Below are positions 17,723-35,006 of a stretch of 36,785 bases of DNA, piece after piece. How positions within the stretch are numbered: position 1 is the stretch's first letter; every line of letters begins with the position of its first letter. Where the stretch lies: positions 1 through 36,785 of the forward strand of contig CAISOH010000034.1 of the NCBI GenBank assembly GCA_903887005.1, read 5' to 3'. Origin of the DNA: an uncultured Bacteroidota bacterium (lineage in GTDB: Bacteria > Bacteroidota > Bacteroidia > Chitinophagales > Chitinophagaceae). The notes under the pieces were generated by a model. That model was not told the origin of the DNA and did no database searches. It worked only from the letters and a program-made list of their open reading frames with translations. Both the position numbers and the translations under genes were made by a program.

Positions 17723-18898
17723 ATGAAAAAAGCACCGGAGCGCTTGACTTCCTTGTTAGATGAATGCAAAACTTTAGCATTCGATCTCAATTTTAATTAT
17801 GCAAAACAATGGAAAGCAAAATCAAAGTACAGGCTATTAGTGGGGTATCTGCCCATTTATGTTCCAAGAGAAATAATTCATGCCGCAAACGGACTTGCTG
17901 TAGGGTTAATGGGAGTTGGTGATCGTAAGCAAATAATAAAAGGCGATGCTTATTACCAATCCTATATATGTCATTTGCCACGTGGAATTATTGAAATGGC
18001 ATTAGATAATAACCTCGATAATTTCGATGGTTTTCTTTTCCCTTCTATTTGTGATTGTGTCCGCAATCTGAGCGGTATGTTCAAATTAGCAAAAAAAGGA
18101 AAGTTTTCCCGTTATTTCGATTATCCGCAGAATTTTGAAAAACACATTGGTGGAACCTTCTATCGTGAATTAAATGAAACTATCATCAATGATATGTTTA
18201 AAATAAACGACATGAAGATAACTACCCAGCACCTCAATGCTTCGATAGCTCTTTACAATCACAACCGGGATTTAATTGAAACGATTTATAATATCCGCCA
18301 GGAATTTCCATGGAGGTTATCTGCTGTTGACATTTATCATATTATCAGGGCAGGTATGGTCATTAATGTAGAGAAGCATAATGAGATGCTGGAGGAAGTT
18401 GTTAATCTGATAAGTGAAGATTTTGGGGAGCCTATGGATAATATCAGGGTAGTAATATCCGGTTCTTTCTGTGAACAACCTCCAATCGGAATGATCAAAT
18501 CAATTGAAATGGCGGGTTGCTATATTGTTGATGATGATTTTATGCTTGGTTCCAGGTGGATCCAGGGCCGTATTGATGATACTACCAATGATCCTTTAAA
18601 TGAAATTGTAGAAGCATTTCTTACAAAAAGTGCGCCTTCTTCAGCAGTTTATGATGTGCCGCATCCCAAAAGCGCGCGTCTTGTACAGCAGGTTAGAGAC
18701 AGGGGCGCAGATGGCGTTATCTTTTGCGCGGCAAGTTTCTGCGACCCGGCATTGCTCGACAGGCCTGACTTACAGAAGGCATGTGATGATGCGGGAATAG
18801 CACATATAAATTTCCAGTTTCATGAAAATACCGGCCAGTTTAAAGTAATAAAAGAACAGGCAGGGACATTTTCAGATTCAATAAAGTTATGGGTTTAA
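17723..18898 (+). CDS. bcrC: Benzoyl-CoA reductase subunit C (2-hydroxyacyl-CoA dehydratase family)
   Basis: 391 residues, usual size for BcrC/BadD. This subunit and BcrB hold the substrate and Fe-S clusters that reduce benzoyl-CoA to cyclohexa-1,5-diene-1-carbonyl-CoA. Visible: GYLPIYVPREIIHAANGL near residue 35 (family start), PSICDCVRNL with Cys110 and Cys112 as cluster ligands, SGSFCEQPP (about 250), DDFMLGSRW (about 271) and FCAASFCDPALLDRP (about 340-354). It is the first of thirteen rightward genes and starts with an ordinary ATG. The gene order C-B-A-D equals that of Thauera bcr and Rhodopseudomonas badDEFG. A 21-base hairpin lies between it and bcrB. Confidence 0.93.
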   Translation: MKKAPERLTSLLDECKTLAFDLNFNYAKQWKAKSKYRLLVGYLPIYVPREIIHAANGLAVGLMGVGDRKQIIKGDAYYQSYICHLPRGIIEMALDNNLDNFDGFLFPSICDCVRNLSGMFKLAKKGKFSRYFDYPQNFEKHIGGTFYRELNETIINDMFKINDMKITTQHLNASIALYNHNRDLIETIYNIRQEFPWRLSAVDIYHIIRAGMVINVEKHNEMLEEVVNLISEDFGEPMDNIRVVISGSFCEQPPIGMIKSIEMAGCYIVDDDFMLGSRWIQGRIDDTTNDPLNEIVEAFLTKSAPSSAVYDVPHPKSARLVQQVRDRGADGVIFCAASFCDPALLDRPDLQKACDDAGIAHINFQFHENTGQFKVIKEQAGTFSDSIKLWV

Positions 18899-18904
18899 CG
18901 GGTA

Positions 18905-18925
18905 GAGACGCAACGCTTGCGTCTC
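18905..18925. repeat. GAGACGCAA hairpin between bcrC and bcrB
   Basis: A perfect 9-bp stem (GAGACGCAA 18905-18913, TTGCGTCTC 18917-18925) with a three-base loop. No T run follows, and the downstream gene is part of the same enzyme, so it is more likely an RNA-processing or stability element, or a REP-like unit, than a full terminator. Confidence 0.6.
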
Positions 18926-18984
18926 CTGCTCAAAGTTTGACAGGTGATTTTTAAATGCATTTTCCACATTAATTCATATAAAAA

Positions 18985-20286
18985 ATGAGTAATCCTAAAG
19001 AAGCAATCAAGGAAAAAAGTATGGTCATTCAGAAAGAGATGCTGGCTAATCTTTTTACTGAACTGAGCAATGCGAAAGCGAATGGTAAGAAAGTAGTGTA
19101 CACATTTGTGCCGGGGAACCTGACGGAATTGATCCTTGCTATGGATATGCTTCCTGTTTACCCTGAGATTAATGCTCTCCAATCCGGTATGCGCAAAAAA
19201 TCAGGAGGCTATATAAAGGATGCAGAGAAGCTTGGGTTTTCTGAAGATGTATGCACATATGTAAAGTGCGACATAGGTATGATGCTCAATGGCAATATTG
19301 GCCCTACAGGCGAAAAACTTCCTGAACCTGATTTGTTGCTGTTAAGTTATACGGGTTGTTTCACTTTTCTGAAATGGTTTGAGAACCTCGAAAGGTTGTA
19401 CCCGGGAGTAGAAATAGCCATGTTGCATACCCCTTACCAGGAAGATGGTAAAATAACTGAAGATCAAATCAGTTATATGGTTAAGCAATTGAAAGAAGAC
19501 GTAATCCCAAAAATGGAAAAAGTAGCGGGGAAAAAACTGGATTACGACCGTCTTGGTAAAATGCTGGATAATGCCGCAAAGGCAGAAGACTTGTGGGTTA
19601 AGGTATTGGAAACTGCAAAAAACAGGCCGTCTCCTATTGATTCTTATTTTGCCGGTGTGTACTACATGGGCCCGTTGAATACCGCATTCCGCGGCACGGA
19701 AGAAGCAGTTCATTATTATGAAGAATTATACAAAGAAGTAACAGACAGGATGAAACTGGGATTGTGCCCTGTAACTCCCGAAGGTGAAATGAAAGAAGAA
19801 AAATTCAGGCTGGTTGTGGAAGGGCCTCCAAACTGGACAAACTTCCGCGAATTCTGGAAAATATTCTACGATATGGGAGCTGTAATTGTTGCTTCTACCT
19901 ATACCAAAGTTGGTGGTTTATATGATCAGGGTTTCAGGCATGAGCCGGGGAAACCATTGGAAAGCCTTGCCAAATATTGTATGGGTTGCTACACCAATTT
20001 GAATTTGCCGCAGCGTGTTGATCTGATCGAACATTATATTAAAGAGTATAAAGCGGATGGTTTCCTGATTAATTCTATTAAGAGTTGCAATTCATTCTCT
20101 GCCGGCCAGTTGTTAATGATGCGGGAGGTAGAGCAAAGATGCGGTATACCGGTTGGTTTTATTGAAAGCGACCTTGTTGATCCCCGTTATTTCTCTTATG
20201 CGAATATCAAAAACAGGTTAGAATCATACTTCCAGATGCTTGGACAGAGAAAAGTGATCATAGCACAGGAAGAAGCTGCAGTGTAA
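18985..20286 (+). CDS. bcrB: Benzoyl-CoA reductase subunit B (2-hydroxyacyl-CoA dehydratase family)
   Basis: 433 residues, usual size for BcrB/BadE. Cysteines are placed as in HgdB-type Fe-S subunits: Cys90 and Cys95 (VCTYVKCDIG), Cys125 (SYTGCFTF), Cys332 and Cys335 (YCMGCYTN), Cys368 (KSCNSFSAGQ). TFVPGNLTELILAMDMLPVYPE near residue 35 is the family N-terminal block (split here for reading: TFVPGNLTELILA, then MDMLPVYPE). It works with BcrC as the reducing module. It precedes bcrA by 26 bases. The third homologous subunit at 24989-26206 has three of these Cys positions but lacks Cys332 and Cys335. Confidence 0.93.
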   Translation: MSNPKEAIKEKSMVIQKEMLANLFTELSNAKANGKKVVYTFVPGNLTELILAMDMLPVYPEINALQSGMRKKSGGYIKDAEKLGFSEDVCTYVKCDIGMMLNGNIGPTGEKLPEPDLLLLSYTGCFTFLKWFENLERLYPGVEIAMLHTPYQEDGKITEDQISYMVKQLKEDVIPKMEKVAGKKLDYDRLGKMLDNAAKAEDLWVKVLETAKNRPSPIDSYFAGVYYMGPLNTAFRGTEEAVHYYEELYKEVTDRMKLGLCPVTPEGEMKEEKFRLVVEGPPNWTNFREFWKIFYDMGAVIVASTYTKVGGLYDQGFRHEPGKPLESLAKYCMGCYTNLNLPQRVDLIEHYIKEYKADGFLINSIKSCNSFSAGQLLMMREVEQRCGIPVGFIESDLVDPRYFSYANIKNRLESYFQMLGQRKVIIAQEEAAV

Positions 20287-20312
20287 TTAATCATAAAACG
20301 AAACTCAAAATA

Positions 20313-21734
20313 ATGAACAAGTATTATTTAGGTATTGACCTCGGGTCAACAACTTCCAAAGCGGTGATCATCAATGAGCAGGATGAGATTATAGGCCGTG
20401 GCATAACTAATACCCGCGCTAATTATTCAGTGGCGGCTGATATAGCGAGGATGGAGGCAATATACAATGCCCGTTTTTCTATCCTGAAGAAGAACCTCGC
20501 TAAGGAGATCGAATCAAAACCGCAATACAAGAAATATTTGTCTGACCTGGAAAGCGTTTTCCAGTACGAACAATTTAAGGTTAGAATTGATAAACTGGGC
20601 GATGAACTTCTGAAAACCTGCTACAATCATTTTGAAGGTGAAAGGCGCCTGGTGATGATTGATCATTTACGGATTATCCGGAAGGCCATCAAGCCCAGGA
20701 TCAAGCACCAGTATATTTATGAGAACCTCGGTGATAAAAATCAATTCTTCCGTGATATAGTATCTGAAAAATATAATGAAGAAGTAAACAAATTCGATAT
20801 TTCACTTTTTGAACCATTGATGACAATATGGGATAAAAGCATCACGGCTGCAGAAAATGAAATAGTGAATTTTGATTTCGAAGCCCTGATCACACAGGCT
20901 ATGGATTTGCTCCGGGAAAAATATGAAAATCTGCCTGACCAGGCTGAAAATATTCCGATTGAAGCAAACGCAACTTTTGACGCGGAAATGTATTTGCTGA
21001 AAGGCGACTTTAAAAATGTTTCTGAATCATTGCGTGACCGGATTGATGAAGTTGCAAACATTGAATTTAATATAGAAAACATGACCGGGACAGGTTATGG
21101 TAGGGCTTTGCTGCCATTTCCGCAGGAATGTATCAGGTCGGAAATTTTGTGCCATGCTTTCGGAGCCCATGCGGTATTCCCTGAAACACGTACCGTATTG
21201 GACATTGGCGGGCAGGATACCAAGGCCATCCAGGTTGATAAGTATGGTCTCGTAACCAGTTTCCAGATGAATGACCGTTGCGCTGCAGGATGTGGCAGAT
21301 ACCTTGGTTATATAGCTGATGAAATGAGTATTTCCCTGAACGAATTAGGCCCGTTGGCTATGCAGGCTGAGAAGGAAGTAACCATTTGTTCTACCTGTAC
21401 GGTTTTTGCAGGCGCTGAATTACGTGAGCTGACCAATATGGGAGAAAAAAGAGCGGATATCCTTGGTGGCTTGCATAAGGCGATAATCATGAGGGCTATG
21501 TCGCTGATTGCCAGGTCTGGCGGTGTTTTCAATGAATTTACTTTTACTGGTGGAGTCGCAAGAAACCAGGCCGTAATAAAATATCTCGCTCAGCTGGTAA
21601 AGGAAAATTATGGCGATAACATCAAAATAAACATTCACACGGATTCCATCTTCATGGGTGCATTGGGTGGTGCCATGTTTGCACGCAGGAATATTAAAAT
21701 TGATTTGCCAAGCGCAAAAAAGGTTACAGCTTAA
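20313..21734 (+). CDS. bcrA: Benzoyl-CoA reductase subunit A (ATP-hydrolysing activator)
   Basis: 473 residues. One of the two ASKHA-fold ATPase subunits that drive electrons into BcrBC with ATP hydrolysis. LGIDLGSTTSKAVII (residues 5-19) is phosphate loop 1. A long helical insert (about 45-240) separates it from GTGYGRALLPFP, DIGGQDTKAIQ, NDRCAAGCGRYL (Cys323, Cys327), ICSTCTVFAGAE (Cys359, Cys362) and FTGGVARNQAV. The insert is typical of the larger BcrA/BadF-type subunit. The [4Fe-4S] cluster bridges the two ATPase subunits through the paired Cys. Cys327 and Cys362 are extra to the minimal pair seen in BcrD. Confidence 0.93.
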   Translation: MNKYYLGIDLGSTTSKAVIINEQDEIIGRGITNTRANYSVAADIARMEAIYNARFSILKKNLAKEIESKPQYKKYLSDLESVFQYEQFKVRIDKLGDELLKTCYNHFEGERRLVMIDHLRIIRKAIKPRIKHQYIYENLGDKNQFFRDIVSEKYNEEVNKFDISLFEPLMTIWDKSITAAENEIVNFDFEALITQAMDLLREKYENLPDQAENIPIEANATFDAEMYLLKGDFKNVSESLRDRIDEVANIEFNIENMTGTGYGRALLPFPQECIRSEILCHAFGAHAVFPETRTVLDIGGQDTKAIQVDKYGLVTSFQMNDRCAAGCGRYLGYIADEMSISLNELGPLAMQAEKEVTICSTCTVFAGAELRELTNMGEKRADILGGLHKAIIMRAMSLIARSGGVFNEFTFTGGVARNQAVIKYLAQLVKENYGDNIKINIHTDSIFMGALGGAMFARRNIKIDLPSAKKVTA

Positions 21735-21737
21735 AAA

Positions 21738-21757: not shown

Positions 21758-21795
21758 AGATAAAGTCAAATAATCATACCTGAAAAATATATTTT

Positions 21796-22635
21796 ATGAC
21801 AGAGACAGTTTATACGATGGGGATAGATGTTGGAAGCAACTTTATTAAACTGGTATTGATGGAGTATTCTGATCAGCCAAAACTGGTTGACAAGCATACG
21901 GAAAAGATACGTAAGCGTAACCCCACCCAGGTTGCCGATGAAATGGTACAGATAATGCTTGATAAAAACAAGCTGAAGTACGAAGATGTGGTTTATCTCG
22001 CATCAACAGGTGAAGGGGATCTCGTAAAACGCAAGCGTGGCCATTTCTATGGAATGACTACCCATGCGCGTGGTGCGAATTTCTTCTTTCCTGAAGCCCG
22101 TACTGTAGTTGATCTCGGCGCATTATATGTACGTTGTATCCGTATAAATGCAGGAGCAAGAGTAGAGGATTATAAAATGACGGGCCAGTGCGCGTCTGGT
22201 TCCGGGCAATTCCTCGAAAATATATCCCGCTATCTTGGATTGAGTATTGAAGAAGTTGGAGAGGTTTCCCTGCAGGCGAGTAACCCTGAAATATCTTCGG
22301 GTATATGTGCAGTGCTTGCCGAAACAGATGTGATTAACATGGTATCGCGGGGTATAAAGACCGCCGACATTATTAAGGGTATTCACTTGTCCATCGCAGC
22401 GCGTGTCATAAAATTGCTTGGGGCATTGAAAGCGGAGTCTCCTATTATTCTTACCGGGGGGATGGCGCTTAATAAAGGAATGATACAGGCAATTGATGAG
22501 ACGCTGAAAGAAGGAACCAAAAAATTTGTTATCCATGCACATCCCGATTCCATATATGCAGGATGTATAGGAGCGGCATTGTGGGGTGGCTACCGTCATT
22601 TTAAATTGAAAGAAAAACAAGCAGTAGTGGCGTAA
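21796..22635 (+). CDS. bcrD: Benzoyl-CoA reductase subunit D (ATP-hydrolysing activator)
   Basis: 279 residues, the shorter ATPase subunit (BcrD/BadG). TMGIDVGSNFIKLVLM (about 7-22) is phosphate loop 1; STGEGDLVKRKRG, TVVDLGALYVR, MTGQCASGSGQFL (Cys132), GICAVLAETDVINM (Cys171) and LTGGMALNKGM follow in family order. The two Cys match the cluster-binding pair of HgdC-type activators. In DLGALYVRC the usual acidic residue after the Gly-Gly (GGQD or GGED in the other two activators here) is Ala-Leu, a difference also compatible with a non-equivalent BcrD site. It completes the four-subunit enzyme. Confidence 0.92.
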   Translation: MTETVYTMGIDVGSNFIKLVLMEYSDQPKLVDKHTEKIRKRNPTQVADEMVQIMLDKNKLKYEDVVYLASTGEGDLVKRKRGHFYGMTTHARGANFFFPEARTVVDLGALYVRCIRINAGARVEDYKMTGQCASGSGQFLENISRYLGLSIEEVGEVSLQASNPEISSGICAVLAETDVINMVSRGIKTADIIKGIHLSIAARVIKLLGALKAESPIILTGGMALNKGMIQAIDETLKEGTKKFVIHAHPDSIYAGCIGAALWGGYRHFKLKEKQAVVA

Positions 22636-22642
22636 GTCAAAA

Positions 22643-22674: not shown

Positions 22675-22678
22675 AAAG

Positions 22679-22790
22679 CCAGTGTTGTTTCAAGAATAGT
22701 AAACCCGAAGGGTTGGTATTATTATAGCAAAAACAACGAATAAAGATTAACCCCGAAGGGGTGACATTATTTACTCATAATGAACACTGG
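22679..22790. repeat. REP-like element: two CCCGAAGGG hairpins inside an inverted repeat
   Basis: CCAGTGTT (22679-22686) and AACACTGG (22783-22790) are perfect inverted repeats. Between them are two short palindromes, AACCCGAAGGGTT (22702-22714) and ACCCCGAAGGGGT (22750-22762), each followed by a similar AT-rich stretch. The CCCCGAAGGGG motif is common in Bacteroidota intergenic repeats. It lies between bcrD and the acyl-CoA synthetase gene and could mark a transcript boundary or 3'-end processing. Confidence 0.65.
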
Positions 22791-22848: not shown

Positions 22849-24978
22849 ATGGAAGCAGAATTAATGGAGCCTGTCAAAAAAGCAGTTCATGAACTGGATG
22901 CACTGTTTAAACCAAGGTCAATAGCCATAATAGGCGCATCTCAGAAAGAGTTATCAATCGGGAATGTAATTATAAAAAATCTCGTTCATTATGGTTATAC
23001 CGGGGCCTTATATCCCATTAACCCGAAGATGGATGAAATACGGGGGATTAAAGCATATCCTACCATATTTGAAGTGCCTGATGAAATTGACCTGGCGCAT
23101 GTAATCATTCCTGCAAAATTCGTTCCCCAAACCATTGAAGATTGCGGGAAAAAGGGTATTAAGGCAGTAATAATAAATTCCGCAGGCTTTAGTGAGATGG
23201 GTGAAGAAGGCGTAGCCTTGCAAAATGAATTTTTGTCTATTGCTAAGAAATATGGCATCAGGATTTTCGGCCCTAATTGCCAGGGAATCATAAACTCAGA
23301 TCCTGAATATAAAGCCTATTGTGATTTTACCTTCACTTTCCCGAAACCGGGAAAAATTTCTATTGTTGCCCTTAGCGGTGGTGTAGGCGCCTTCATTATG
23401 CAAAGCCTTTTTGATTTGGATATTGGGATGCGGATGTATGCATCTAACGGCAATGCATCTGATGTATCTATACCTGATGTGATAAAATATTATGGGGATG
23501 ATGAGGAAACAAAAGCTATAATACTTTATACAGAAGGATTGTCAAATCCGCTGGAATTTATGGAAGTGGCAAAATCGGTAACCAAAAAGAAACCGATACT
23601 TGCCATGAAAGCCGGCAGAACTGAAGAGGGTGCAAAAGCTGCTGCCTCTCATACAGGCTCGCTTGCAGGGGTTGATATTTCTACAGAGCTTATTTTTGAA
23701 AAAACCGGAATTCTCGCTTTTAATAATGAAGAAGAATTATGCCAGGTAGCAATGGCTTTTGCAACTCAGCCTTTTCCAAAAGGGAATAGGGTAGGAGTAA
23801 TTACCAATACCGGGGGGCCTGCAGTAATAGCTACTGATGAATTGATTAATTCAGGGCTTAGGTTGCCTGCTCTTTCTGAAAAAGCAAAAAGTATTTTGCA
23901 GACAACCATGTTGCCTGAAGCGACTATCGGTAACCCGATAGATGTTGTTGCTACGGGAGGAGGCGCACATTTCAGAAGTGCAATGGATGTGCTTATGGAG
24001 GAAGATGAAATTGATTCTATTTATATCAATTTTGTAACAGCGCCGTTTACGGATACTGATGAAGTTGCAAGAAATATTGTTGAGGTAAGCCAGTTGAAGA
24101 AGAAACCGGTTGTATGCAATTTCATGACTAATATGAGCCTGGAACGTTTCCAGGAGACGGCAAGGATACTAAAAGACGGAGGCGTTCCGTGTTATAGTTT
24201 TCCAACCACAGCTGCAAAAGCGCTTGGAGCTCTATATCGTTACAGTAAAACCAGGTCAAGAAATATAGGCGAGCCAAAAGACTTTCCGGGAATTGATAAA
24301 AAGAAGGCGGATGTCATAATCAGGCAGGCTCAGAAAGAAGGTAAATCTTACCTGGCAGCTGATGGTGTTTATGAAATACTGACAGCCTATGGCATACCTG
24401 TAGCAGATTGGTGGTTGGCCAATGATATATTTGAGGCGGAAAGTGCTGCTGAAAATATAGGGTACCCGGTTGTCATTAAGGTCGAATCTTCTGCAATCGT
24501 TCATAAAAGTGATATAGGTGGAGTGGCAATTAACCTGAAAAATGCCGCAGAAGTAACGGAGACCCTGGAAAAAATGAAATTAAAATTTGGTACCAGGAAT
24601 GTAAAATACTTAGTTCAGAAATTTCTTCCCGGAGGAAAGGAGTTGATTGCAGGCGTAAGTACCAAAGCTGGGTTGGGGCATCTGATCATGTTTGGGCTGG
24701 GAGGTATTTATGTGGAAGTATTGAAAGATGTTGTTTTTAAAATAGCGCCTGTTACTGAGTTGGAAGCAGGAGAAATGTTATCCTCTATTAAGGCGGCAAA
24801 ATTATTGGATGGCGTAAGAGGGGAGAAAGCTATCAATAAGGAAATGGTAATTGATATAATACAACGCGTGTCAAAGTTAGTGACTGACTTCCCGATGATT
24901 ACTGAAATGGATATGAACCCAATCATCGCTATTCATGACAAAGTATATGTGGTGGATGCCAGGATAAAAATTGACTAA
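22849..24978 (+). CDS. ADP-forming acyl-CoA synthetase (fused alpha-beta, NDP-forming)
   Basis: 709 residues. N-terminal CoA-binding domain (SIAIIGASQ, about 24-32; YPINPK; NSAGFSEMG; GPNCQGI), succinyl-CoA-ligase-like domains with the phospho-histidine motif AGRTEEGAKAAASHTGS (His268), and a C-terminal ATP-grasp (AYGIPVADWW about 510, YPVVIKVESS, IGGVAINL, KFLPGGKELIAGVS). These enzymes interconvert acyl-CoA + ADP + Pi with acid + ATP. It may make benzoyl-CoA from benzoate, or harvest ATP from a product CoA ester; the sequence does not decide. No AMP-forming benzoate-CoA ligase is present here. It ends 10 bases before the third dehydratase-type subunit. Confidence 0.9.
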   Translation: MEAELMEPVKKAVHELDALFKPRSIAIIGASQKELSIGNVIIKNLVHYGYTGALYPINPKMDEIRGIKAYPTIFEVPDEIDLAHVIIPAKFVPQTIEDCGKKGIKAVIINSAGFSEMGEEGVALQNEFLSIAKKYGIRIFGPNCQGIINSDPEYKAYCDFTFTFPKPGKISIVALSGGVGAFIMQSLFDLDIGMRMYASNGNASDVSIPDVIKYYGDDEETKAIILYTEGLSNPLEFMEVAKSVTKKKPILAMKAGRTEEGAKAAASHTGSLAGVDISTELIFEKTGILAFNNEEELCQVAMAFATQPFPKGNRVGVITNTGGPAVIATDELINSGLRLPALSEKAKSILQTTMLPEATIGNPIDVVATGGGAHFRSAMDVLMEEDEIDSIYINFVTAPFTDTDEVARNIVEVSQLKKKPVVCNFMTNMSLERFQETARILKDGGVPCYSFPTTAAKALGALYRYSKTRSRNIGEPKDFPGIDKKKADVIIRQAQKEGKSYLAADGVYEILTAYGIPVADWWLANDIFEAESAAENIGYPVVIKVESSAIVHKSDIGGVAINLKNAAEVTETLEKMKLKFGTRNVKYLVQKFLPGGKELIAGVSTKAGLGHLIMFGLGGIYVEVLKDVVFKIAPVTELEAGEMLSSIKAAKLLDGVRGEKAINKEMVIDIIQRVSKLVTDFPMITEMDMNPIIAIHDKVYVVDARIKID

Positions 24979-24988: not shown

Positions 24989-26206
24989 ATGTATAAAATT
25001 GAATCGGCAAAATATTTGAAGGAAATAATGGGTAATTATTTCCTGGGAATGAAAGACAAGAGCAAAAAATATGCATGGTGTACAAGTGTCGGACCGGCGG
25101 AACTATTGCGGTCATTTGGTTTTGAAGTTCATTTTCCGGAAAATCATGGTGCTCTTTTAGGGACCTCCCGCACAGCCGGAGATTTTATTCCGGAATCTGA
25201 GAAACTGGGCTACTCCAATGACATCTGTTCTTATTTAACTGCTGACATTGGATCCTATCTGAAGAAAGAAACTCCGCTTACAAAACATTATGGTTTGAAT
25301 GGCCCGCCAAGACCAGACATTATTGTTTATAATACCAATCAGTGCCGCGAGGTGCAGGATTGGTTTTGTTATTTTGGTAAGGAATTGGATTGCCCTGTTG
25401 TAGGGATTTGTCCGCCTCGGCATTTAGATGAAGTAACTAAGGAAGCTATTGATGATGTAGCTACTCAGTTTAAGAATATGATACCTGTATGTGAACAGGT
25501 AAGCGGGCAAAAATTTGATATTGACAAGTTTAGAGAAACCCTGAGGTTAAGTAAAGAAGCAACTGATTTGTGGAAACAAGTATTGTGGACAGCAACAGCT
25601 TCGCCTTCGCCCATTAGTTTCTTTGATGCAACGATTCACATGGGACCGATTGTAGTGTTAAGAGGAACGCAGATCGCAAAGGACTATTACAAGTTGTTGC
25701 TGGATGAGTTACAAGGTAATGTTGTGAAAGGAATTGGATTCCTGGAAAATGAGAAGTGCCGTATTTACTGGGATGGAATGCCTATATGGGGCAAATTAAG
25801 GCCGCTGTCAGAATTATTTATTCAGAATAATGCGGCAATTGTAGCATCTACTTATTGTAATAGCTGGGTATTTGATGCATTTGATGAAAGAAATCCTTTT
25901 GAATCTTCCGCAAAAGCATACACGGAAATTTTCATTAACAGAAGCGAAAGTGCAAAAGAAAAGATTTTGGCAGGACTTGTCAGAGATTTCAACATCGATG
26001 GATTGATATTTCATGAAGCAAAAACCTGTGCCAACAATTCAAATTCCCGGTTTGGTATGCCACAGCGCCTTAGGGAATCATTAGGTATCCCGACCTTGAT
26101 TATTGAAGGAGACCTTTGTGATCTCCGGTTTTATTCAGAAGGCCAGAGCATAACAAAAATTGAAACATTTATCGAGCAAATAGAAAGTTCTAAAGTTTAT
26201 AGCTAA
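24989..26206 (+). CDS. Third BcrB/HgdB-type Fe-S subunit (unassigned reductase/dehydratase)
   Basis: 405 residues, 2-hydroxyacyl-CoA dehydratase family. Three Cys line up with BcrB cluster ligands: Cys80 (NDICSYLTADIG), Cys119 (NTNQCREVQDW) and Cys347 (EAKTCANNSNSR). Shared family features include MGPIVVLRGT (about 222) and IVASTYCNSWVFD. It lacks the BcrB Cys332/Cys335 pair and is about 30 residues shorter. Dehydratases and reductases of this family normally use two different such subunits; here only one is encoded next to an activator (the fusion at 26788). It either pairs with BcrB or BcrC, forms a homodimer, or has a partner elsewhere. Substrate not predictable. Confidence 0.85.
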   Translation: MYKIESAKYLKEIMGNYFLGMKDKSKKYAWCTSVGPAELLRSFGFEVHFPENHGALLGTSRTAGDFIPESEKLGYSNDICSYLTADIGSYLKKETPLTKHYGLNGPPRPDIIVYNTNQCREVQDWFCYFGKELDCPVVGICPPRHLDEVTKEAIDDVATQFKNMIPVCEQVSGQKFDIDKFRETLRLSKEATDLWKQVLWTATASPSPISFFDATIHMGPIVVLRGTQIAKDYYKLLLDELQGNVVKGIGFLENEKCRIYWDGMPIWGKLRPLSELFIQNNAAIVASTYCNSWVFDAFDERNPFESSAKAYTEIFINRSESAKEKILAGLVRDFNIDGLIFHEAKTCANNSNSRFGMPQRLRESLGIPTLIIEGDLCDLRFYSEGQSITKIETFIEQIESSKVYS

Positions 26207-26714: not shown

Positions 26715-26787
26715 TGATGTGGGCTTAAGAATAATAGGGATCTGGATGTTTGACCGATAAAATTTATAACCTGCTTTAATTATATTG

Positions 26788-28647: not shown

Positions 28648-29907
28648 ATGAAAGCATACCATAATAAAGAAAAAGGTTTTGGAATTATTTACGATGATAT
28701 TTTTTTAGTGAATGGCGCACGGACGCCATTTGGGAAATTATGCGGCACCCTTGCCAATATTTCCCCCACTGATTTAGGGATTTATGCATGTAGGGCAGCC
28801 ATTGCAAAATCAGGTATTTCTCCTGATGATATTGACCAGGTGATGATGGCAAACATCGGACAAAGTTCCTTTGACTCTTATTTCCTGCCCCGGCATATTG
28901 GTTTATACTCAGGCGTTCCACAAACCATTCCTGCTGTGATGTTGCAGCGTATCTGTGGTTCAGGTTTTGAAACTATGACTGCCGGAGCAGACCAGATTAC
29001 ACTTGGTAAAGCGGATGTTGCGCTGTGCGGTGGTACGGAAAATATGTCGCTGGCGCCTACAGTCAGTTATGGGAACAGGATGGGATATGCTTTAGGACGT
29101 GTGGAATTCAAAGATTTTCTTTGGGAAGCGCTGAATGATACTTCTGGTGTGCCAATGGGATGTACCGCAGAAAACGTTGCTAAACAATACAAGATTACAA
29201 GGCAGGAAACAGATGAGTTTGGAAAGCTTTCTGTTGACAGGGCTATTGCCGCAACACAAAGAGGGTATTTCAAAGATGAAATTACCCCGATCAATGCTGC
29301 CGTGTTCGAAGCTGAAGGATTAAAACCAAGGAAAGTATCTCTATCAAAGAAAATAGTTGATTTTGTTACTGATGAAAATATTCGCGTTTCTTCTCTTGAG
29401 GATATGGCAAAACTGCCCACCGTATTTGAAAAAGACGGTGTTCAGACTGCTGCAAACTCAAGTGGAATAGTAGATGGCGCTGCTTCTGCAATAGTTGCTA
29501 AAAAATCGTTTTTATCAGCCAGGAATATTAACCCGCTGACACGGATAGTTGCTTCTGCCACAAGCGCTATTGATCCGAAAGTGATGGGATTAGGGCCTGT
29601 GCCTGCAATCAGGCTATTGCTGGAAATGACCGGTTTGGAAATTGGTGATATTGGCCTGGTTGAAATAAATGAAGCTTTTGCTGCGCAGTTCATTGGTTGT
29701 GAAAGAGAATTAGGGTTAGACAGGAATATCTGCAACGTTAACGGAGGCGCCATCGCGTATGGACACCCGCTGGCAGCAAGTGGCCTGAGATTATCATTGA
29801 CCCTGTCGAGGGAAATGAACATCAGGAAAGTAAGATATGGAATAGCTTCAGCCTGTATTGGCGGCGGACAGGGAAATGCAATTTTATTTGAGAACTTAAA
29901 TATGTAA
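28648..29907 (+). CDS. Acetyl-CoA C-acyltransferase (thiolase)
   Basis: 419 residues. Thiolase II family signatures: NGARTPFGKLCGTL (about 24-37), nucleophile Cys in QRICGSGFETMTAG (about 98), GGTENMSLAP, INEAFAAQ, GGAIAYGHPLAASG (His) and CIGGGQGNAI (second Cys). Expected role in this cluster: cleave 3-oxopimelyl-CoA to glutaryl-CoA and acetyl-CoA. An extra ~15 residues precede the usual start; the first ATG is used because it sits 9 bases after the previous stop. Tightly coupled to had (2 bases between). Confidence 0.93.
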   Translation: MKAYHNKEKGFGIIYDDIFLVNGARTPFGKLCGTLANISPTDLGIYACRAAIAKSGISPDDIDQVMMANIGQSSFDSYFLPRHIGLYSGVPQTIPAVMLQRICGSGFETMTAGADQITLGKADVALCGGTENMSLAPTVSYGNRMGYALGRVEFKDFLWEALNDTSGVPMGCTAENVAKQYKITRQETDEFGKLSVDRAIAATQRGYFKDEITPINAAVFEAEGLKPRKVSLSKKIVDFVTDENIRVSSLEDMAKLPTVFEKDGVQTAANSSGIVDGAASAIVAKKSFLSARNINPLTRIVASATSAIDPKVMGLGPVPAIRLLLEMTGLEIGDIGLVEINEAFAAQFIGCERELGLDRNICNVNGGAIAYGHPLAASGLRLSLTLSREMNIRKVRYGIASACIGGGQGNAILFENLNM

Positions 29908-29909: not shown

Positions 29910-30977
29910 ATGACTGATCAAAAAATTTATCAGTGGCAAATGACTGCCCTTGATAAAGAATTTTCCCTTGTTGAGCAACCTGTACCCGTATTAAAAGACG
30001 GAGAAGCATTGGTTAAAGTTGCCGGATGCGGCGTTTGTCATACAGATATTAGCTTCTGGCACCATGGTGTGCAGACTAAACATGCCTTACCGCTTACCCT
30101 TGGTCATGAGATCAGCGGCACGGTTGTAAGTGGGCCTGTTGAATGGCTGAATAAAAACGTTATCATACCGGCCGTTCTTCCATGTGGAGAATGTGAATTA
30201 TGCAAAAAAGGCCGTAGTAACATTTGCCGTAATCAACTAATGCCGGGTAACGATTTTGATGGCGGTTTTGCATCACACATCAAAGTGCCTGCTAAGTATT
30301 TGTGCCCGGTTCCGGATGCTGTATTGGAAAAATACTCCTTACAGCAACTCTCCATTATTGCCGATGCGGTTTCTACTCCATACCAGGTAATGAAAAAGGC
30401 GGAGATTGAATCAGGAGATCTTGCCATTGTCATCGGTGTTGGTGGGGTAGGGATATATGGAGCGCAAATCGCGAAAATATTCGGAGCGAAAGTGATAGCA
30501 TTGGATGTGAATGAAGAAAAACTTGCTATCGCTAAACAAAATGGTATTGATGCAACGATCAACATTAAAGGGCTTGATATAAAAGAAATAAAGGACAAGG
30601 TAAAAGCTACAGTGAAAGAACTCAAAGCGTCTCCTTTTTGCTGGAAGATATTTGAAATGTCAGGTACAAAAGCCGGACAGGAAGTTGCATTTAACCTGGT
30701 CACTTTTGCTTCAACACTTTCGATTGTCGGATTTACTATGGATAAAGTGGAAGTACGCCTTAGCAACTTAATGGCTTTTGATGCAAAATTGATTGGTACC
30801 TGGGGTTGCAAACCAGAACTGTATCCTGAAGTGGTACAGCTGGTTGCTAATGACCAGTTACATATTGATGAGTTTGTACAGACATTCCCAATGTCTCAGA
30901 TCAATGAAGTTTTCAGAAATACCCTGGAACATAAATATATCAAGCGTTCAGTGCTTGTACCTGATTTTAACAACTAA
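29910..30977 (+). CDS. had: 6-hydroxycyclohex-1-ene-1-carbonyl-CoA dehydrogenase
   Basis: 355 residues, zinc-dependent medium-chain dehydrogenase. Catalytic-zinc ligands in GCGVCHTD (Cys about 38) and LTLGHEISG (His, Glu). Structural-zinc Cys cluster CGECELCKKGRSNIC (about 91-105). NAD(P) motif IGVGGVGIYG (about 172-181). It oxidises 6-hydroxycyclohex-1-ene-1-carbonyl-CoA to the 6-oxo compound. Length and neighbours (oah directly after, no gap) match the dch-had-oah set of Thauera. The specific call rests on neighbours plus family-like sequence (YQWQM and FWHHG starts); family alone would only give MDR. Confidence 0.9.
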   Translation: MTDQKIYQWQMTALDKEFSLVEQPVPVLKDGEALVKVAGCGVCHTDISFWHHGVQTKHALPLTLGHEISGTVVSGPVEWLNKNVIIPAVLPCGECELCKKGRSNICRNQLMPGNDFDGGFASHIKVPAKYLCPVPDAVLEKYSLQQLSIIADAVSTPYQVMKKAEIESGDLAIVIGVGGVGIYGAQIAKIFGAKVIALDVNEEKLAIAKQNGIDATINIKGLDIKEIKDKVKATVKELKASPFCWKIFEMSGTKAGQEVAFNLVTFASTLSIVGFTMDKVEVRLSNLMAFDAKLIGTWGCKPELYPEVVQLVANDQLHIDEFVQTFPMSQINEVFRNTLEHKYIKRSVLVPDFNN

Positions 30978-32087
30978 ATGATATATATGAGCAACTTAAA
31001 AAATCATGACCTCGTAACAATTGACTTTAAAGAGATTTTATTTGAAACACGTCCCTGTTTGGATAAAGATGGTTCTGCAATAGATGGTTTGTTTAATGCG
31101 TGGATTATTCTTAATAATCCTAAGCAATACAATTCTTATACCACAGCGGCTATCAAGGAAATAATCCTTGCGTTCCGTAAGGCATCGAATGATCGCAGTG
31201 TGGTAGCAGTAGTATTTACAGCCGTTGGAGATAAAGCGTTCTGCACAGGTGGTAATACAAAGGAATACGCAGAGTATTATTCAGGAAATCCACAGGAGTA
31301 TTCTCAATACATGCGCCTTTTCAATGACATGGTTTCTGCAATTCTTATGTGCGAGAAGCCTGTTGTTTGTCGTGTTAATGGGATGCGCGTTGGTGGCGGC
31401 CAGGAAATAGGAATGGCATGTGATTTCAGCATAGCCAGCGATATGGCGCGCTTAGGACAGGCAGGGCCAAAGCATGGCAGCGCTCCTATTGGAGGCGCAA
31501 CAGATTTTCTTCCTCTTTTTGTAGGAGTGGAACGGGCTATGTATTCGCTCACTTTATGCGAACCCTGGACTGCTCACCAGGCATATTACTTTGGCGTGCT
31601 TACGGATATTGCCCCGGTTTTAAAACTGGATGGCAAGTTCATTGCAAACCCAATGGTCGTTACCGATAAAATGACAGATGAATTTGGCAGGATTGCTTTC
31701 GGTTCCATGAAAACAGGTGATGAATTGGGTAAGGCTAAAGAGATCGTAGCTAAAGCGGAAGTGGATCTTAGTATGCTTGATAAAGCTGTGAATAACCTGA
31801 TTGCTAAGCTACTCCATACCTTCCCTAACTGTATGAATAAGACCATCAGTGAAGTACGCAAATTTAAACTGGAGCATTGGGATAAGAATAAAGAAGGTAG
31901 CCGTGAATGGCTTGCTTTGAACATGATGACAGAAGCAAAAGCCGGATTCCGTGCGTTTAATGACGGGCCAAAGGACAACAGGGAAGCGGATTTTGTATTG
32001 CTCCGCCAGCTACTTGCAGAAGGCCATGAATGGAATGAAGAACTGCACAGAGCCATTTCTCCCCAATTTGAAAAACAATCAGCATAA
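30978..32087 (+). CDS. oah: 6-oxocyclohex-1-ene-1-carbonyl-CoA hydrolase
   Basis: 369 residues, crotonase superfamily, ring-opening hydrolase giving 3-hydroxypimelyl-CoA. It carries blocks I recognise as diagnostic of Oah: LNNPKQYNSYTT (about 49-60), CTGGNTKEYAEYY (about 90-102), QYMRLFNDMVSAIL and GGQEIGMACDF (oxyanion region) and QAGPKHGSAPIGGATDFLP (about 163-181). The first ATG follows the had stop with no gap; a second ATG three codons on (30987) is an equal possibility. A hairpin-rich gap of 135 bases follows before dch. Confidence 0.96.
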   Translation: MIYMSNLKNHDLVTIDFKEILFETRPCLDKDGSAIDGLFNAWIILNNPKQYNSYTTAAIKEIILAFRKASNDRSVVAVVFTAVGDKAFCTGGNTKEYAEYYSGNPQEYSQYMRLFNDMVSAILMCEKPVVCRVNGMRVGGGQEIGMACDFSIASDMARLGQAGPKHGSAPIGGATDFLPLFVGVERAMYSLTLCEPWTAHQAYYFGVLTDIAPVLKLDGKFIANPMVVTDKMTDEFGRIAFGSMKTGDELGKAKEIVAKAEVDLSMLDKAVNNLIAKLLHTFPNCMNKTISEVRKFKLEHWDKNKEGSREWLALNMMTEAKAGFRAFNDGPKDNREADFVLLRQLLAEGHEWNEELHRAISPQFEKQSA

Positions 32088-32093
32088 ACAAAT

Positions 32094-32128
32094 AATCAAT
32101 CCGGCAAAGGTCTTTTGGCGGATTGATT
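32094..32128 (+). terminator. Stem-loop between oah and dch
   Basis: AATCAATCCG (32094-32103) pairs with CGGATTGATT (32119-32128), and the interior GCAAAG and CTTTTGGC can extend it. It follows the oah stop by 7 bases, with AATTATA after it. It may be a leaky terminator or mRNA-processing site within the operon. A second weaker stem, CCGGGTTAA with TTAACCGG (32175-32183, 32193-32200), lies before dch. Confidence 0.5.
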
Positions 32129-32222
32129 AATTATAGCATAAGCTGTAATGCCAATAACTCAAGCGTCTTTAAAGCCGGGTTAAGTTTGTTAATTAACCGG
32201 AAAGCATATTTAAAAAAATTTT

Positions 32223-32996
32223 ATGGAAAAAATTAAGGTTAATTATTTGTTTGAAGGTGCAGTTGCCCAAATCATTCTTGATGATGGAAAGGGTAATGTA
32301 CTGGATCATATCATGATGGAGGAACTGCTTGGTCTTTTTGATACTTTCAAATCTAAGAATGATTTAAAGCTGATAACTTTTGAAGGAGCAGGAAAGCATT
32401 TTTCATTCGGCGCCAGTGTTGAAGAACATCAGAAGGACATGGCCGGGGCTATGCTTAAATCTTTTCACCAAATATTTTTTACGCTTAAAGACCTTGCTAT
32501 CCCTACACTTGCAAAAATTTCAGGCCAGTGCCTTGGTGGTGGGATGGAGCTAGCCATCATGTGCAATTTCCTGTATGCTGATAAAAATGCAAAACTAAGT
32601 CAGCCGGAAATTGTACTTGGAGTTTTTCCTCCTCTGGCTTCTATTATTCTTGCAGAAAAGATTGGTCTGGCAAAAGCAGAGGAGTTAATAATTACAGGCA
32701 AAGTTATTACTGCAGATCTGGGAAAATCCATTGGCTTAATTAATGAAGTTTTTAACGATAAAGCAGAATTGGAATCAGGGATTAATACTTTCATTGAGCA
32801 GCAGATCCTTCCTAAAAGCGCATCCTCATTGCGGTTTGCTGTAAAGGCAAGCAGGGTTAAGTTCAATCATATTTTAGGGAATTTCCTTCCAATTCTGGAA
32901 CAGTTGTATGTTAATGAGTTGATGAACACAAAAGACGCCAACGAGGGTATTAATTCGTTCATTGAAAAAAGAAAACCGGTTTGGCAGAATAATTAA
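32223..32996 (+). CDS. dch: Cyclohexa-1,5-diene-1-carbonyl-CoA hydratase
   Basis: 257 residues, crotonase superfamily. FGASVEEHQKD (about 62-72) is the Dch-type variant of the crotonase GADI segment, and GQCLGGGMELAIMCNFLYAD (about 102-121) is the oxyanion loop. VLGVFPPLASIILAEKIG (about 140) follows. It adds water to the diene made by BcrCBAD to give 6-hydroxycyclohex-1-ene-1-carbonyl-CoA. Length equals that of Thauera Dch (258). Only 12 bases separate it from the next gene. Confidence 0.93.
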   Translation: MEKIKVNYLFEGAVAQIILDDGKGNVLDHIMMEELLGLFDTFKSKNDLKLITFEGAGKHFSFGASVEEHQKDMAGAMLKSFHQIFFTLKDLAIPTLAKISGQCLGGGMELAIMCNFLYADKNAKLSQPEIVLGVFPPLASIILAEKIGLAKAEELIITGKVITADLGKSIGLINEVFNDKAELESGINTFIEQQILPKSASSLRFAVKASRVKFNHILGNFLPILEQLYVNELMNTKDANEGINSFIEKRKPVWQNN

Positions 32997-33008
32997 TAAT
33001 CCAATTTT

Positions 33009-35006
33009 ATGAAAACTATTAAAACAGTGGGAGTCATTGGCGCCGGAACAATGGGCGCTGCCATTGCACAAAAATTTGCCCAGGAAAATTTTAATGTAAT
33101 TCTCGCCGACCGTGAGGAAAGATTTGTGAAACGCGGGATAGACAACATTACAAAAATGTTCCGGGAAGGTGTTGAGAAAAATGTGTTTACTGAAGAGCAG
33201 GTTGATAATTACCTTTCAAACATTAAGGGTACTCATGAACTTGAAAACCTCAAAAAATGCGATCTCATTGTTGAAGCGATATTTGAGGATTTTATTGCTA
33301 AATCAGATTTGTTTAAAATAGTAGATTCCATTGTTGGTCCTGAGACAATATTAGCTACCAATACATCATCGTTCTCCGTAACTGAACTTGCACAATCCGT
33401 TTCTCACCCTGAAAGGTTTGTTGGGATGCATTATTTCTATCATGCCGCCAAAAATCGTTTGGTTGAAATAATACCGGGTGAAGAAACTTCACAGGAGGTA
33501 GTTGATTCTGTAAAAGCATTTTCCCTGCTTTCAGGCAAGGATGCCATTATTTGTAAAGATTCATATGGCTTCGTTGTCAACAGGTTTTTTGTACCATGGC
33601 TCAATGAGGCAGCCCGCCTGCTGGAGGAAAATATTGCCAACATCGCAACCATTGATGATGTTTGCATGAATGTATTTGGTATTGGCATGGGTCCCTTCGC
33701 ATTGATGAATGCTACCGGCGTACCTGTTGCTTATCATGCCGAGAAGACCCTTGAAAGGTATGGTACGCTCTATTCAGTATCGCATAAGCTGAAAGAACAG
33801 GCATTGTCTAATCAGCAATGGGAGCTTGAAGGCGAGGTTTCGACAGATGAGGCGTTAAGAAAGAAGGTGAGTGACCGGATGCTTGGTATTGTCTTTTTTG
33901 TTTGTTCCCAGCTATTGGATGAACAGGTTTGTGCAGCGGTTGACATAAACCGTGGAGCGAAGATTGGGTTAAAGTGGCGAAAAGGACCAATAGAGTTGAT
34001 GCAATATTATAAAGAGGATATGGTGTGGTATTTTATCCACCTTGCTGCAGGCCTCTATCAAATGCATTTGCCGGTATCTATTGGTGCCAAGTTCTGGAAA
34101 ATGAAGTACGTGGAACTGGAAAAGAGAGGAAACATTGCCATCCTTACCATGAGCAGGCCGGAAGACCTCAATGCCCTTAATGAAGAAGTAATGAAACAGC
34201 TGGATGAACAATTTTCACTGGCAGATAATGATACATCGGTTGATACTATATTTATTACGGGTTCAGGCAAGGCGTTTGTTGCAGGAGCTGATATAAAATT
34301 CTTTATTAAAAATATTAAGACACACAGGATAAGCGATATTGAAACATTCACTGGTTACGGCCAGTCGGTATTTAAAAAGATTGATGAATCTCCTAAGAAA
34401 ATTGTAGCTGTAATCAATGGGCTCGCTCTTGGCGGCGGCCTGGAACTGGCGTTGTGTGCCGATGTAATCCTGGCTGTACCTGCAGCTCAAATGGCTTTTC
34501 CGGAAACGGGTATAGGCATTTATCCCGGTCTTGGAGGTACTCAAAGATGTGCAAAGAAAATAGGCAAACCATTGAGTAAATATCTGATCCATACAGGCAA
34601 AATGCTGAGTGCAAAAGATGCGCAGGAAATTGGGTTAGTTGACAAAATAATCACACGGGAACAAATGTTTGAAATATTTTCAGGCAATAGTCCGGTTCCG
34701 GATAATAGTTCAGTTCAGCTTAGCAATAAATGGAAAAACATCGAACATTTTTTCAGTAACAATTCACTAAGCAAAGTATTGGCGCATGAATATGCAACGG
34801 ATGGAATGGGAAGTGAAGATGCTGAGAAAATATTTAAGACACTGAAAAAGAAAGCGTCGATAGCCATCAATATTGCAGACAAGCTGATTGATGAAGCAAA
34901 AGGCTGCGATTCAGAATTGAAATATCTCGACCTCATATTCTCCACCTCAGACGCCCTGCTTGGATTAAGTTCTATTGGTAAGCAAGTGGAATACCAGGGG
35001 AACTAG
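33009..35006 (+). CDS. Bifunctional 3-hydroxyacyl-CoA dehydrogenase / enoyl-CoA hydratase
   Basis: 665 residues. N-terminal NAD-binding domain with VGVIGAGTMGAAIAQKF (6-22) and NTSSFSVTELA; GMHYFYHAAKNRLVEI (about 140) replaces the usual GMHFFNP motif but keeps His and Glu. C-terminal 3HCDH domains (about 185-365, SYGFVVNRFF). From about 368 a crotonase domain: AFVAGADIKFF, GLALGGGLELALCADV and PETGIGIYPGLGGTQR, with both Glu present. Order is dehydrogenase first, hydratase second, the reverse of FadB. Expected to oxidise 3-hydroxypimelyl-CoA; the hydratase half could act on dehydropimelyl-CoA or crotonyl-CoA. Last gene of the cluster, 24 bases from a convergent gene. Confidence 0.92.
   Translation: MKTIKTVGVIGAGTMGAAIAQKFAQENFNVILADREERFVKRGIDNITKMFREGVEKNVFTEEQVDNYLSNIKGTHELENLKKCDLIVEAIFEDFIAKSDLFKIVDSIVGPETILATNTSSFSVTELAQSVSHPERFVGMHYFYHAAKNRLVEIIPGEETSQEVVDSVKAFSLLSGKDAIICKDSYGFVVNRFFVPWLNEAARLLEENIANIATIDDVCMNVFGIGMGPFALMNATGVPVAYHAEKTLERYGTLYSVSHKLKEQALSNQQWELEGEVSTDEALRKKVSDRMLGIVFFVCSQLLDEQVCAAVDINRGAKIGLKWRKGPIELMQYYKEDMVWYFIHLAAGLYQMHLPVSIGAKFWKMKYVELEKRGNIAILTMSRPEDLNALNEEVMKQLDEQFSLADNDTSVDTIFITGSGKAFVAGADIKFFIKNIKTHRISDIETFTGYGQSVFKKIDESPKKIVAVINGLALGGGLELALCADVILAVPAAQMAFPETGIGIYPGLGGTQRCAKKIGKPLSKYLIHTGKMLSAKDAQEIGLVDKIITREQMFEIFSGNSPVPDNSSVQLSNKWKNIEHFFSNNSLSKVLAHEYATDGMGSEDAEKIFKTLKKKASIAINIADKLIDEAKGCDSELKYLDLIFSTSDALLGLSSIGKQVEYQGN

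Follow-up and report, generated by a model that had tools for sequence, protein, structure and literature searches.

A class I benzoyl-CoA pathway operon of Bacteroidota encloses a 2-hydroxyacyl-CoA dehydratase-like module that may supply it with aromatic amino acid carbon

What would a member of the Bacteroidota reduce with a benzoyl-CoA reductase, and where would its benzoyl-CoA come from? The question is raised by a contig (C34) of an uncultured Chitinophagaceae bacterium (GenBank assembly GCA_903887005.1, contig CAISOH010000034.1), which in its whole length of 36,785 bases is the window analysed here; the genome to which it belongs comprises 5.96 Mb in 453 contigs and is 99.8% complete and 1.01% contaminated. 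We found 13 plus-strand genes at 17723–35006, all of them open reading frames (ORFs), with 10 of the 12 intergenic gaps shorter than 100 bases, and the clustering of these pathway genes is far beyond chance. The original prediction, made from the letters of the window, had placed the subunits of benzoyl-CoA reductase on one strand together with had, oah, dch, a thiolase and a dehydrogenase; coordinates and strand were correct, and profile scores agree. It left unnamed an ADP-forming ligase (acdAB), a HadB-like protein (hadBlike), a small protein (p160) and a PanE–activase fusion, which form a dehydratase module and are the most unusual part of the cluster.

A bcr-type pathway in a Bacteroidota genome

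Scores of NCBIfam profiles are quoted throughout in bits against the curated cut-off of each family. The run of genes begins with bcrC (17723–18898), encoding benzoyl-CoA reductase subunit C, a beta-like protein of the HGD-D family that is conserved in relatives (TIGR02263, 444.3 bits, cut-off 421.15), and bcrB (18985–20286), encoding the catalytic HGD-D subunit B (TIGR02260, 691.5, cut-off 486.55). The ATPase subunits follow: for BcrA (20313–21734) the best family is TIGR02259 at 443.6 bits, below its cut-off of 578, and BcrD (21796–22635) barely exceeds that of TIGR02261 (313.9 against 312.85); both match PF01869. Beyond the module lie a thiolase gene (28648–29907; TIGR01930, 395.2, cut-off 240.55), had for 6-hydroxycyclohex-1-ene-1-carbonyl-CoA dehydrogenase (29910–30977; TIGR03201, 452, cut-off 338.65), oah for the ring-opening 6-oxocyclohex-1-ene-1-carbonyl-CoA hydratase (30978–32087; TIGR03200, 589.7, cut-off 464.45), dch for dienoyl-CoA hydratase (32223–32996; best family TIGR03189, 207.8 bits, below the cut-off of 292.5) and a gene fusing 3-hydroxyacyl-CoA dehydrogenase to enoyl-CoA hydratase (33009–35006; FadB/FadJ-type dehydrogenase at residues 2–256, hydratase at approximately 365–555).

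Cys90, Cys125 and Cys368 of BcrB were present in 76 of 76 aligned BcrB sequences and correspond to Cys95, Cys128 and Cys380 of BzdO as given in the available part of PMC11971306, equated through family alignments rather than a structure overlay. A profile search of the genome found BcrA, BcrD and the fused activase as its only BadF-type ATPases over the cut-off, and the BzdN and BzdO models gave low scores for the reductase of the window. Judged by these profiles, it is nearly certain that the genome encodes a class I, bcr-type benzoyl-CoA pathway. In this central part, BcrCBAD would reduce benzoyl-CoA at the expense of ATP, Dch would hydrate the product, Had would oxidize it and Oah would open the ring, after which beta-oxidation would proceed through the dehydrogenase/hydratase fusion and the thiolase.

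The cluster had been called complete, which holds for bcrCBAD, had, oah, dch, thiolase and dehydrogenase but not for three other parts: we found no ferredoxin among the 13 cluster genes and no short CxxCxxC frame in the six gaps checked, no benzoate-CoA ligase over the family cut-off in the genome (best match 189.4 against 375.25 bits) and no glutaryl-CoA dehydrogenase at family level. An acyl-CoA dehydrogenase gene adjoins the cluster in relatives of the L100–L106 type, and the genome has a 71% identical copy elsewhere (G000:C24). The name glutaryl-CoA dehydrogenase, first given to this copy, was not upheld, as the family cut-off is not reached (271.5 against 470 bits, with the acryloyl-CoA reductase model close behind at 257.5); the gene of L101 scored 259.8 with the glutaryl-CoA dehydrogenase model, below the 268 of acryloyl-CoA reductase. 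An acyl-CoA dehydrogenase of the C24 type is the likely candidate for the glutaryl-CoA step.

A scan of genome contigs with BcrB yielded 287 confirmed relatives, the best 80 of which, at 72–96% identity, were kept as named loci. Taxon labels of these best 80 of 287 were Bacteroidota in 69, Ignavibacteria in four, Chlorobiota in four, and Armatimonadetes, Competibacteraceae and unnamed in one each. In a BcrB tree of 78 rows (the accompanying distances cover 36 loci), the window falls within a set of 10 rows with support of 100/95, the other rows of which are all labelled Bacteroidota. The predicted Bacteroidota host is borne out by these relatives, nearly all Bacteroidota or close kin, by the type IX secretion system tail domains that a profile search found encoded in the window, and by a GldE-like neighbouring gene (198 bits, below the cut-off of 376). 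That a member of this phylum has the pathway was likewise right, but the trait is not an isolated oddity there, with BcrB over the cut-off in 16 of 396 genomes of the order and 50 of 395 genomes of the class of G445, counts that are not independent because both samples overlap with the named loci.

We rejected a chimeric assembly: a chimeric join is very unlikely because independent metagenome-assembled genomes (MAGs) repeat the same gene order, many of them with a divergent sdr–xdhC–mocA block upstream. Two relatives (G724 and G500) are single-contig genomes carrying the full operon, and mis-binning is therefore no explanation there. Gene transfer was considered and rejected for the Competibacteraceae-labelled L064, whose label is probably wrong because its genome groups at class level with those of 15 other named loci. 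The Armatimonadetes-labelled L060 (1–4567) carries bcrCBAD alone, with chemotaxis-type genes adjoining, in a genome with two HGD-D proteins; its BcrB is 81–84% identical to Bacteroidota copies, and the reductase alone may have been transferred. A plasmid collection searched for outside relatives gave best matches of only 19–29% identity and therefore no outgroup for the origin of bcr.

hadBlike resembles HadB

hadBlike (24989–26206), an HGD-D protein of the HadB/BcrB type, is our proposed alpha subunit of an aryl-lactyl-CoA dehydratase without a beta partner. It scored 215.5 bits with the HadB model (cut-off 750) and 171.5 with that of BcrB. Its sequence matches in the PDB were HadB (3o3m, 1e-50), MbdO (5e-38) and BzdO (7e-21). 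An AlphaFold model of hadBlike (predicted local distance difference test 88.0, predicted template modelling (TM) score 0.89) retrieved 3o3m_A first in Foldseek (E 3.5e-27, TM 0.91/0.92), followed by MbdO and BzdO, with double-cubane cluster proteins (DCCPs) and beta subunits lower. The active-site loop reads WCTSVGP, of the HadB type W-x-T-S-V, whereas that of BcrB reads YTFVPGN. By hidden Markov model (HMM) score, PDB sequence match, active-site loop and predicted fold, hadBlike is nearer to HadB than to BcrB.

Residues W30, C31, S33, E51, C80, C119, C290 and C347 were invariant in 33 of 33 hadBlike sequences. We take Ser37 and Glu55 to be the HadB numbering of equivalent positions. The three cluster cysteines described for BzdO and HadB in the part of PMC11971306 available have their counterparts in C80, C119 and C347, and the catalytic glutamate has its counterpart in E51 (in FPEN). 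We also considered hadBlike as a double-cubane protein, which is ruled out by fold (TM 0.91 with HadB against 0.77 with DCCP) and HMM. C31 and C290 are two further invariant cysteines, with Thr at those places in BcrB; as for their being double-cubane ligands, the profile alignment with BcrC is weak (31% probability over 172 columns).

The missing beta partner

A PF06050 search found just three HGD-D proteins in the genome, BcrB, BcrC and hadBlike; a separate beta subunit elsewhere was rejected on this search, which revealed none besides BcrC. Among the genomes of 50 of the 80 named loci, for which completeness is unstated, exactly three HGD-D proteins were counted in 46, five in two (L087 and L102) and two in two (L095 and L060). 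In L087 (3922–8423), from one of the genomes with five HGD-D proteins, bcr is adjoined by further HGD-D and activase genes that form a second, divergent set. Because hadBlike has no HadC-type partner, we term it 2-hydroxyacyl-CoA dehydratase (HAD)-like and not a canonical HAD. With BcrC as the only beta subunit that the genome could offer it, hadBlike would on the simplest reading work as a homodimer, a proposal to which we give about even chances.

hadBlike could otherwise be a second aryl-CoA reductase or dehydroxylase (for example, of hydroxybenzoyl-CoA), a BcrB paralogue that shares BcrC. It does lie within the bcr operon, it shares homology with BcrB (hhalign probability 100%, 29% identity), BcrC is the sole beta-like HGD-D protein of the genome, and hadBlike is hardly ever found without a benzoyl-CoA reductase; however, it is nearer to HadB in sequence, active-site loop and fold, it is accompanied by one activase and not a BcrA/BcrD pair, and a second reductase would leave the fused or neighbouring PanE reductase without a role. 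In addition, a hadBlike 68% identical to that of the window persists in G595 beside a bzd-type reductase (BzdN 485.1, BzdO 658.6 and BzdQ 444.3 bits, all over cut-off), where the hadBlike search found no bcr-type BcrB, BcrC not being sought genome-wide. We consider a second reductase improbable and keep the homodimer as the working proposal.

The module accompanies benzoyl-CoA reductase

In the order sample, 16 of 16 genomes with BcrB, own included, had a second HGD-D match, which was hadBlike, at 64–86% identity, in every one of the 12 genomes looked at among the 15 others with BcrB; a 17th genome with a match (G392) had a distant HGD-D protein only, at approximately 20% identity. Second matches, not individually aligned, were present in 51 of 51 BcrB genomes of the class sample, including one (G992) with BcrB split over two contigs. 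hadBlike occurred in 4 of the 395 genomes of a phylum sample, own included, all four with a class I reductase; the class and phylum rates are not comparable, as 371 of these 395 genomes have a completeness of 90% or more and a contamination of 5% or less, and the quality of the class sample is unstated. One class-sample locus, L188 (1229–1426; G1108:C82), retains approximately 66 residues of bcrC, with acdAB, panE, had, oah, dch, hadBlike and activase in place; the gap where bcrCBAD is expected would reflect a deletion or an assembly fault.

We surveyed the module in the 57 of the 80 loci that have at least 9.5 kb after bcrB and found hadBlike in 48, PanE in 49 and the activase in 38. The arrangement is thus repeated across dozens of uncultured relatives. 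The junctions ligase–hadBlike, hadBlike–PanE and PanE–thiolase often span a few bases or overlap. For seven of the nine loci in which hadBlike was not seen, the rest of the genome was considered: a third HGD-D match lies farther along the same contig in L052, L076 and L087, and likewise by score in L057 and L075; the genomes of L060 and L095 have none.

Pairwise distances were compared across 19 loci with all eight genes within length limits, rows that are related and thus only descriptive. Those of hadBlike correlated with distances of PanE (r 0.84), of the activase (0.77) and of bcrCBAD (0.62–0.71), and members of bcrCBAD correlated with each other at 0.85–0.96; the value of 0.92 between PanE and activase is expected because both are fused in all 19 loci. 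These distances suggest that the history of the module is partly separate from that of bcr. G595 carries two PanE genes and an activase gene, on other contigs. Its bzd-type cluster (L137, 8090–17714; G595:C15), again in a Bacteroidota genome, is adjoined by an 860-residue NAD(P)-binding oxidoreductase fusion and an ADP-forming ligase. We conclude that the module is very probably linked in function to the benzoyl-CoA pathway.

A proposed feeding arm

The fusion gene (26785–28638) joins a PanE/ApbA-type reductase (residues ~9–313; TIGR00745, 155 bits, cut-off 141.35) to an acyl-CoA dehydratase activase (~353–593; TIGR00241, 152 bits, cut-off 125.4), which are separate genes in other loci. The TIGR00241 match provides the single-gene, ATP-dependent activase of a HAD. 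In G595, a PanE gene meets the gene of a HisC-type aminotransferase (306.3 bits, cut-off 276.55) at a shared base. Genes resembling 4-hydroxybenzoyl-CoA reductase lie within the stretch at hand in 20 of the 57 loci, and in G724 such a pair is inside the module. In the own genome they are found on C413 (alpha 797.6 against 994.55, gamma 172 against 257.8 and beta 218.3 against 404.55, with the alpha and beta models as best matches), and scores for L062 and L101 were similar and below the cut-offs. The operon holds a ligase and no CoA-transferase for the hydroxyacid, the rest of the genome not having been searched for one. We prefer an aromatic substrate because the module is linked to two types of benzoyl-CoA reductase, because of the 4-hydroxybenzoyl-CoA-reductase-like genes and the G595 aminotransferase, and because no benzoate-CoA ligase scores over the cut-off.

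Under this proposal, phenylalanine or tyrosine would give an aryl-pyruvate, which the PanE domain would reduce to (R)-aryl-lactate; the acyl-CoA ligase, an ADP-forming enzyme here and an AMP-forming one in many relatives, would convert aryl-lactate to its CoA ester; and hadBlike, given an ATP-driven electron by the fused activase, would dehydrate the ester to cinnamoyl-CoA or coumaroyl-CoA. Hydratase, dehydrogenase and thiolase would then release acetyl-CoA and benzoyl-CoA or 4-hydroxybenzoyl-CoA, and in the tyrosine branch the 4-hydroxybenzoyl-CoA-reductase-like Mo enzyme encoded elsewhere in the genome would convert the latter to benzoyl-CoA. The phenylalanine line would run from phenylpyruvate through phenyllactate, phenyllactyl-CoA and cinnamoyl-CoA to benzoyl-CoA. 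The gene families are as assigned above; the substrate and the quaternary structure we infer, and we judge that this aryl-lactate arm is as apt to be right as wrong.

Several observations weigh against it. hadBlike falls short of the HadB equivalog cut-off (215.5 against 750 bits), and it is without the second subunit of described HADs, which in the available parts of PMC11971306 and PMC5897657 are two-subunit enzymes with clusters (heterodimers or two clusters). The PanE domain passes the cut-off of ketopantoate reductase (TIGR00745, 2-dehydropantoate 2-reductase), and its PDB matches are so named, so that it may act on ketopantoate or some other substrate. The aminotransferase link comes from one genome, G595, and the enzyme passes the cut-off for histidinol-phosphate transaminase and may serve histidine; the module of that genome is dispersed among several contigs, and the other PanE copy there adjoins squalene-synthase-like genes. 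All matches to 4-hydroxybenzoyl-CoA reductase are below cut-off, and the small subunit in G724 fits XdhB (221.1) over 4-hydroxybenzoyl-CoA reductase (129.7). In terms of distribution, 9 of the 57 loci show no hadBlike within the stretch at hand, the genomes of L095 and L060 have BcrB yet only two HGD-D proteins, and G1108, with a single HGD-D match in the class sample, has hadBlike with only a bcrC stub.

The module could instead be a dehydratase for a non-aromatic acid (2-hydroxyglutarate, 2-hydroxyisocaproate or lactate) that lies near bcr for regulation only, or its PanE could be an unrelated ketopantoate reductase. The best characterised match of hadBlike is a 2-hydroxyisocaproyl-CoA dehydratase, and the TIGR00745 cut-off is passed. 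In an amino-acid fermenter the module should persist without the reductase, yet the four hadBlike genomes of the phylum sample all have a class I reductase; thiolase and dehydrogenase/hydratase fit the breakdown of cinnamoyl-CoA, though that of ring-derived acids too. We regard a non-aromatic substrate or an unrelated PanE as unlikely, and an aryl-lactate substrate remains our preferred reading.

Exchange of the ligase and apparent retention of a lid

acdAB (22849–24978) encodes an ADP-forming acyl-CoA ligase with ATP-grasp_5 and Succ_CoA_lig domains (NF045493, 576.6 bits, below the cut-off of 1300). It occupies the position that in other loci is held by an AMP-forming ligase, c11, a protein of approximately 581 residues that ORF clustering detected in 31 of the 80 loci, usually located between the bcrD and hadBlike genes; a full-length c11 is absent from the own genome. 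p160 (26232–26714; 160 residues; PF23562, 24.6 bits, cut-off 20.8) corresponds to the C-terminal lid segment of c11 without the adenylating core: it is 44% identical to c11 residues 424–574, and P-loop and hinge are missing. A four-cysteine motif, C-x-C-P-x8-C-[LI]-x2-C, was present in 29 of 30 long c11 and 15 of 16 p160 proteins.

The 57 loci divide into 26 with c11 and no acdAB, 10 with acdAB and p160, 12 with acdAB alone, 6 with c11 and acdAB, and 3 with neither; some c11 matches in the group of six are p160-type fragments (for example, L058). L077 and L079 carry differently cut c11 remnants located before acdAB, and the c11 that adjoins acdAB in L052 is altered in its P-loop and hinge. On account of p160, these remnants and the altered c11, the lid segment seems to have been retained after the ligase function was lost. 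It is not always needed, because eight loci of the other acdAB type have no p160. In C. sporogenes, the CoA-transferase belongs to the dehydratase complex (PMC5897657, available part), and by analogy we can only guess that the lid has a similar docking function. Two short palindromes, AACCCGAAGGGTT at 22702–22714 and ACCCCGAAGGGGT at 22750–22762, lie in the 213 bases that separate bcrD from acdAB, the site of the ligase swap.

The ligase also bears on a simpler possibility, that the organism is an ordinary benzoate degrader in which the ADP-forming enzyme is the benzoate-CoA ligase and the remaining module a minor side pathway. The ligase is a neighbour of bcr-type genes in many loci and of bzd-type genes in G595, and the genome has no other benzoate-CoA ligase over the cut-off. 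A literature search for an ADP-forming benzoate ligase found none. A benzoate degrader of this kind would leave hadBlike, PanE and activase without an explanation, even though across the loci they occur as widely as the ligases and often have genes coupled to that of the ligase; we think it quite improbable.

Combining the parts of the aryl-lactate reading gives an undescribed anaerobic route from phenylalanine and tyrosine via aryl-lactyl-CoA to acetyl-CoA, with a beta-less homodimeric dehydratase, a swap to an ADP-forming ligase and a kept four-cysteine lid. The beta-less homodimer would be a third build of the benzoyl-CoA reductase/HAD enzymes, beside alpha–beta heterodimers and double-cubane homodimers, and the lid would perhaps serve the dehydratase complex in a structural or redox capacity. 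We hold this combination tentatively, and it is rather to be expected that some part of it will fail.

Neighbouring genes

Upstream, on the minus strand, lie genes for a short-chain dehydrogenase/reductase (SDR) family oxidoreductase of the FabG type (15382–16122; linked in relatives, 37 of the 80 named loci by ORF clustering), an XdhC-like maturation factor of Mo enzymes (16122–16889; NF045664, 199.2 bits, below cut-off; 30 of 80) and a MocA-like cytidylyltransferase for Mo-enzyme maturation (16889–17506; NF045665, 112.8, and TIGR03310, 101.3 bits, both below cut-off; its cluster in 34 of 80). At the right contig end, 36470–36784 encodes the N-terminal part of an IS4-type transposase (NF049926), and the contig may end there because this site is a repeat. 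In two relatives, an O-methyltransferase-like gene lies between bcrC and bcrB (L062, 8820–9977; L065, 8840–9985).

Implications

If the aryl-lactate reading is true, ring reduction in Bacteroidota serves the amino-acid carbon of dead biomass and not pollutants. This would explain benzoyl-CoA genes in Bacteroidota MAGs whose isolate names suggest lakes, bogs, fens and groundwater, and also the findings for a Bacteroidota MAG that, in the available part of PMC8099898, expresses peptidases as well as enzymes of anaerobic benzoyl-CoA degradation. A single pathway would then combine two low-potential radical enzymes driven by ATP, and the module would be a natural experiment on whether a 2-hydroxyacyl-CoA dehydratase functions without its own beta subunit. 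It would also call for caution in taking bcr genes in Bacteroidota MAGs as a sign of hydrocarbon or benzoate degradation.

Comparison with known systems

Bcr-type class I benzoyl-CoA pathways are those of Thauera, Rhodopseudomonas and Magnetospirillum. The window shares with them bcrCBAD, had, oah and dch, with BcrB, BcrC, BcrD, Had and Oah over their cut-offs; it differs in its Bacteroidota host, the ADP-forming ligase, the embedded dehydratase module, BcrA and Dch scores below cut-off and a cluster in which no ferredoxin was found. The bzd-type reductase, as in Aromatoleum sp. CIB, is that of G595, which also bears hadBlike, PanE and activase, whereas the reductase of the window is of the bcr type.

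Among HADs, HadBC has the activator HadI, and the phenyllactyl-CoA dehydratase of Clostridium sporogenes is FldABC with FldI. Like these, the module forms a single unit in which a HadB-type catalytic protein with the cluster cysteines and glutamate is accompanied by one activase, an enzyme for CoA activation and a likely 2-hydroxyacid dehydrogenase. Unlike them, it has no beta subunit of its own, its PanE is fused to the activase, a ligase replaces the CoA-transferase, and the product is proposed to enter ring reduction and not to be excreted as arylpropionate. DCCPs are homodimeric members of the same family (PMC11971306, available part), but hadBlike fits HadB far better (TM 0.91 against 0.77) and carries the alpha-type set of three cysteines.

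The feeding arm would follow the step order of the 3-aryllactate pathway, 2-ketoacid, 2-hydroxyacid, CoA ester and enoyl-CoA, as given in the part of PMC5897657 available, and would then continue with cleavage of cinnamoyl-CoA. Its chemistry would be identical to the hypothetical route from phenylpyruvate through cinnamoyl-CoA to benzoyl-CoA, with a proposed phenyllactyl-CoA dehydratase, that the accessible text of PMC13416013 gives for the benzene-degrading strain BzS1; the candidate genes of BzS1 lie in several places, whereas here the parts are in one operon. A survey of 37 genomes of the Fibrobacterota–Chlorobiota–Bacteroidota group reports no bcr or bam genes in the available part of PMC10936416. 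No linked dehydratase module is described in the parts of the literature searched, from which most subscription papers were absent. The two halves of the locus are of known kinds, and, as far as tested, the novelty lies in bringing them together, in the absence of a beta subunit and in the retained ligase lid.

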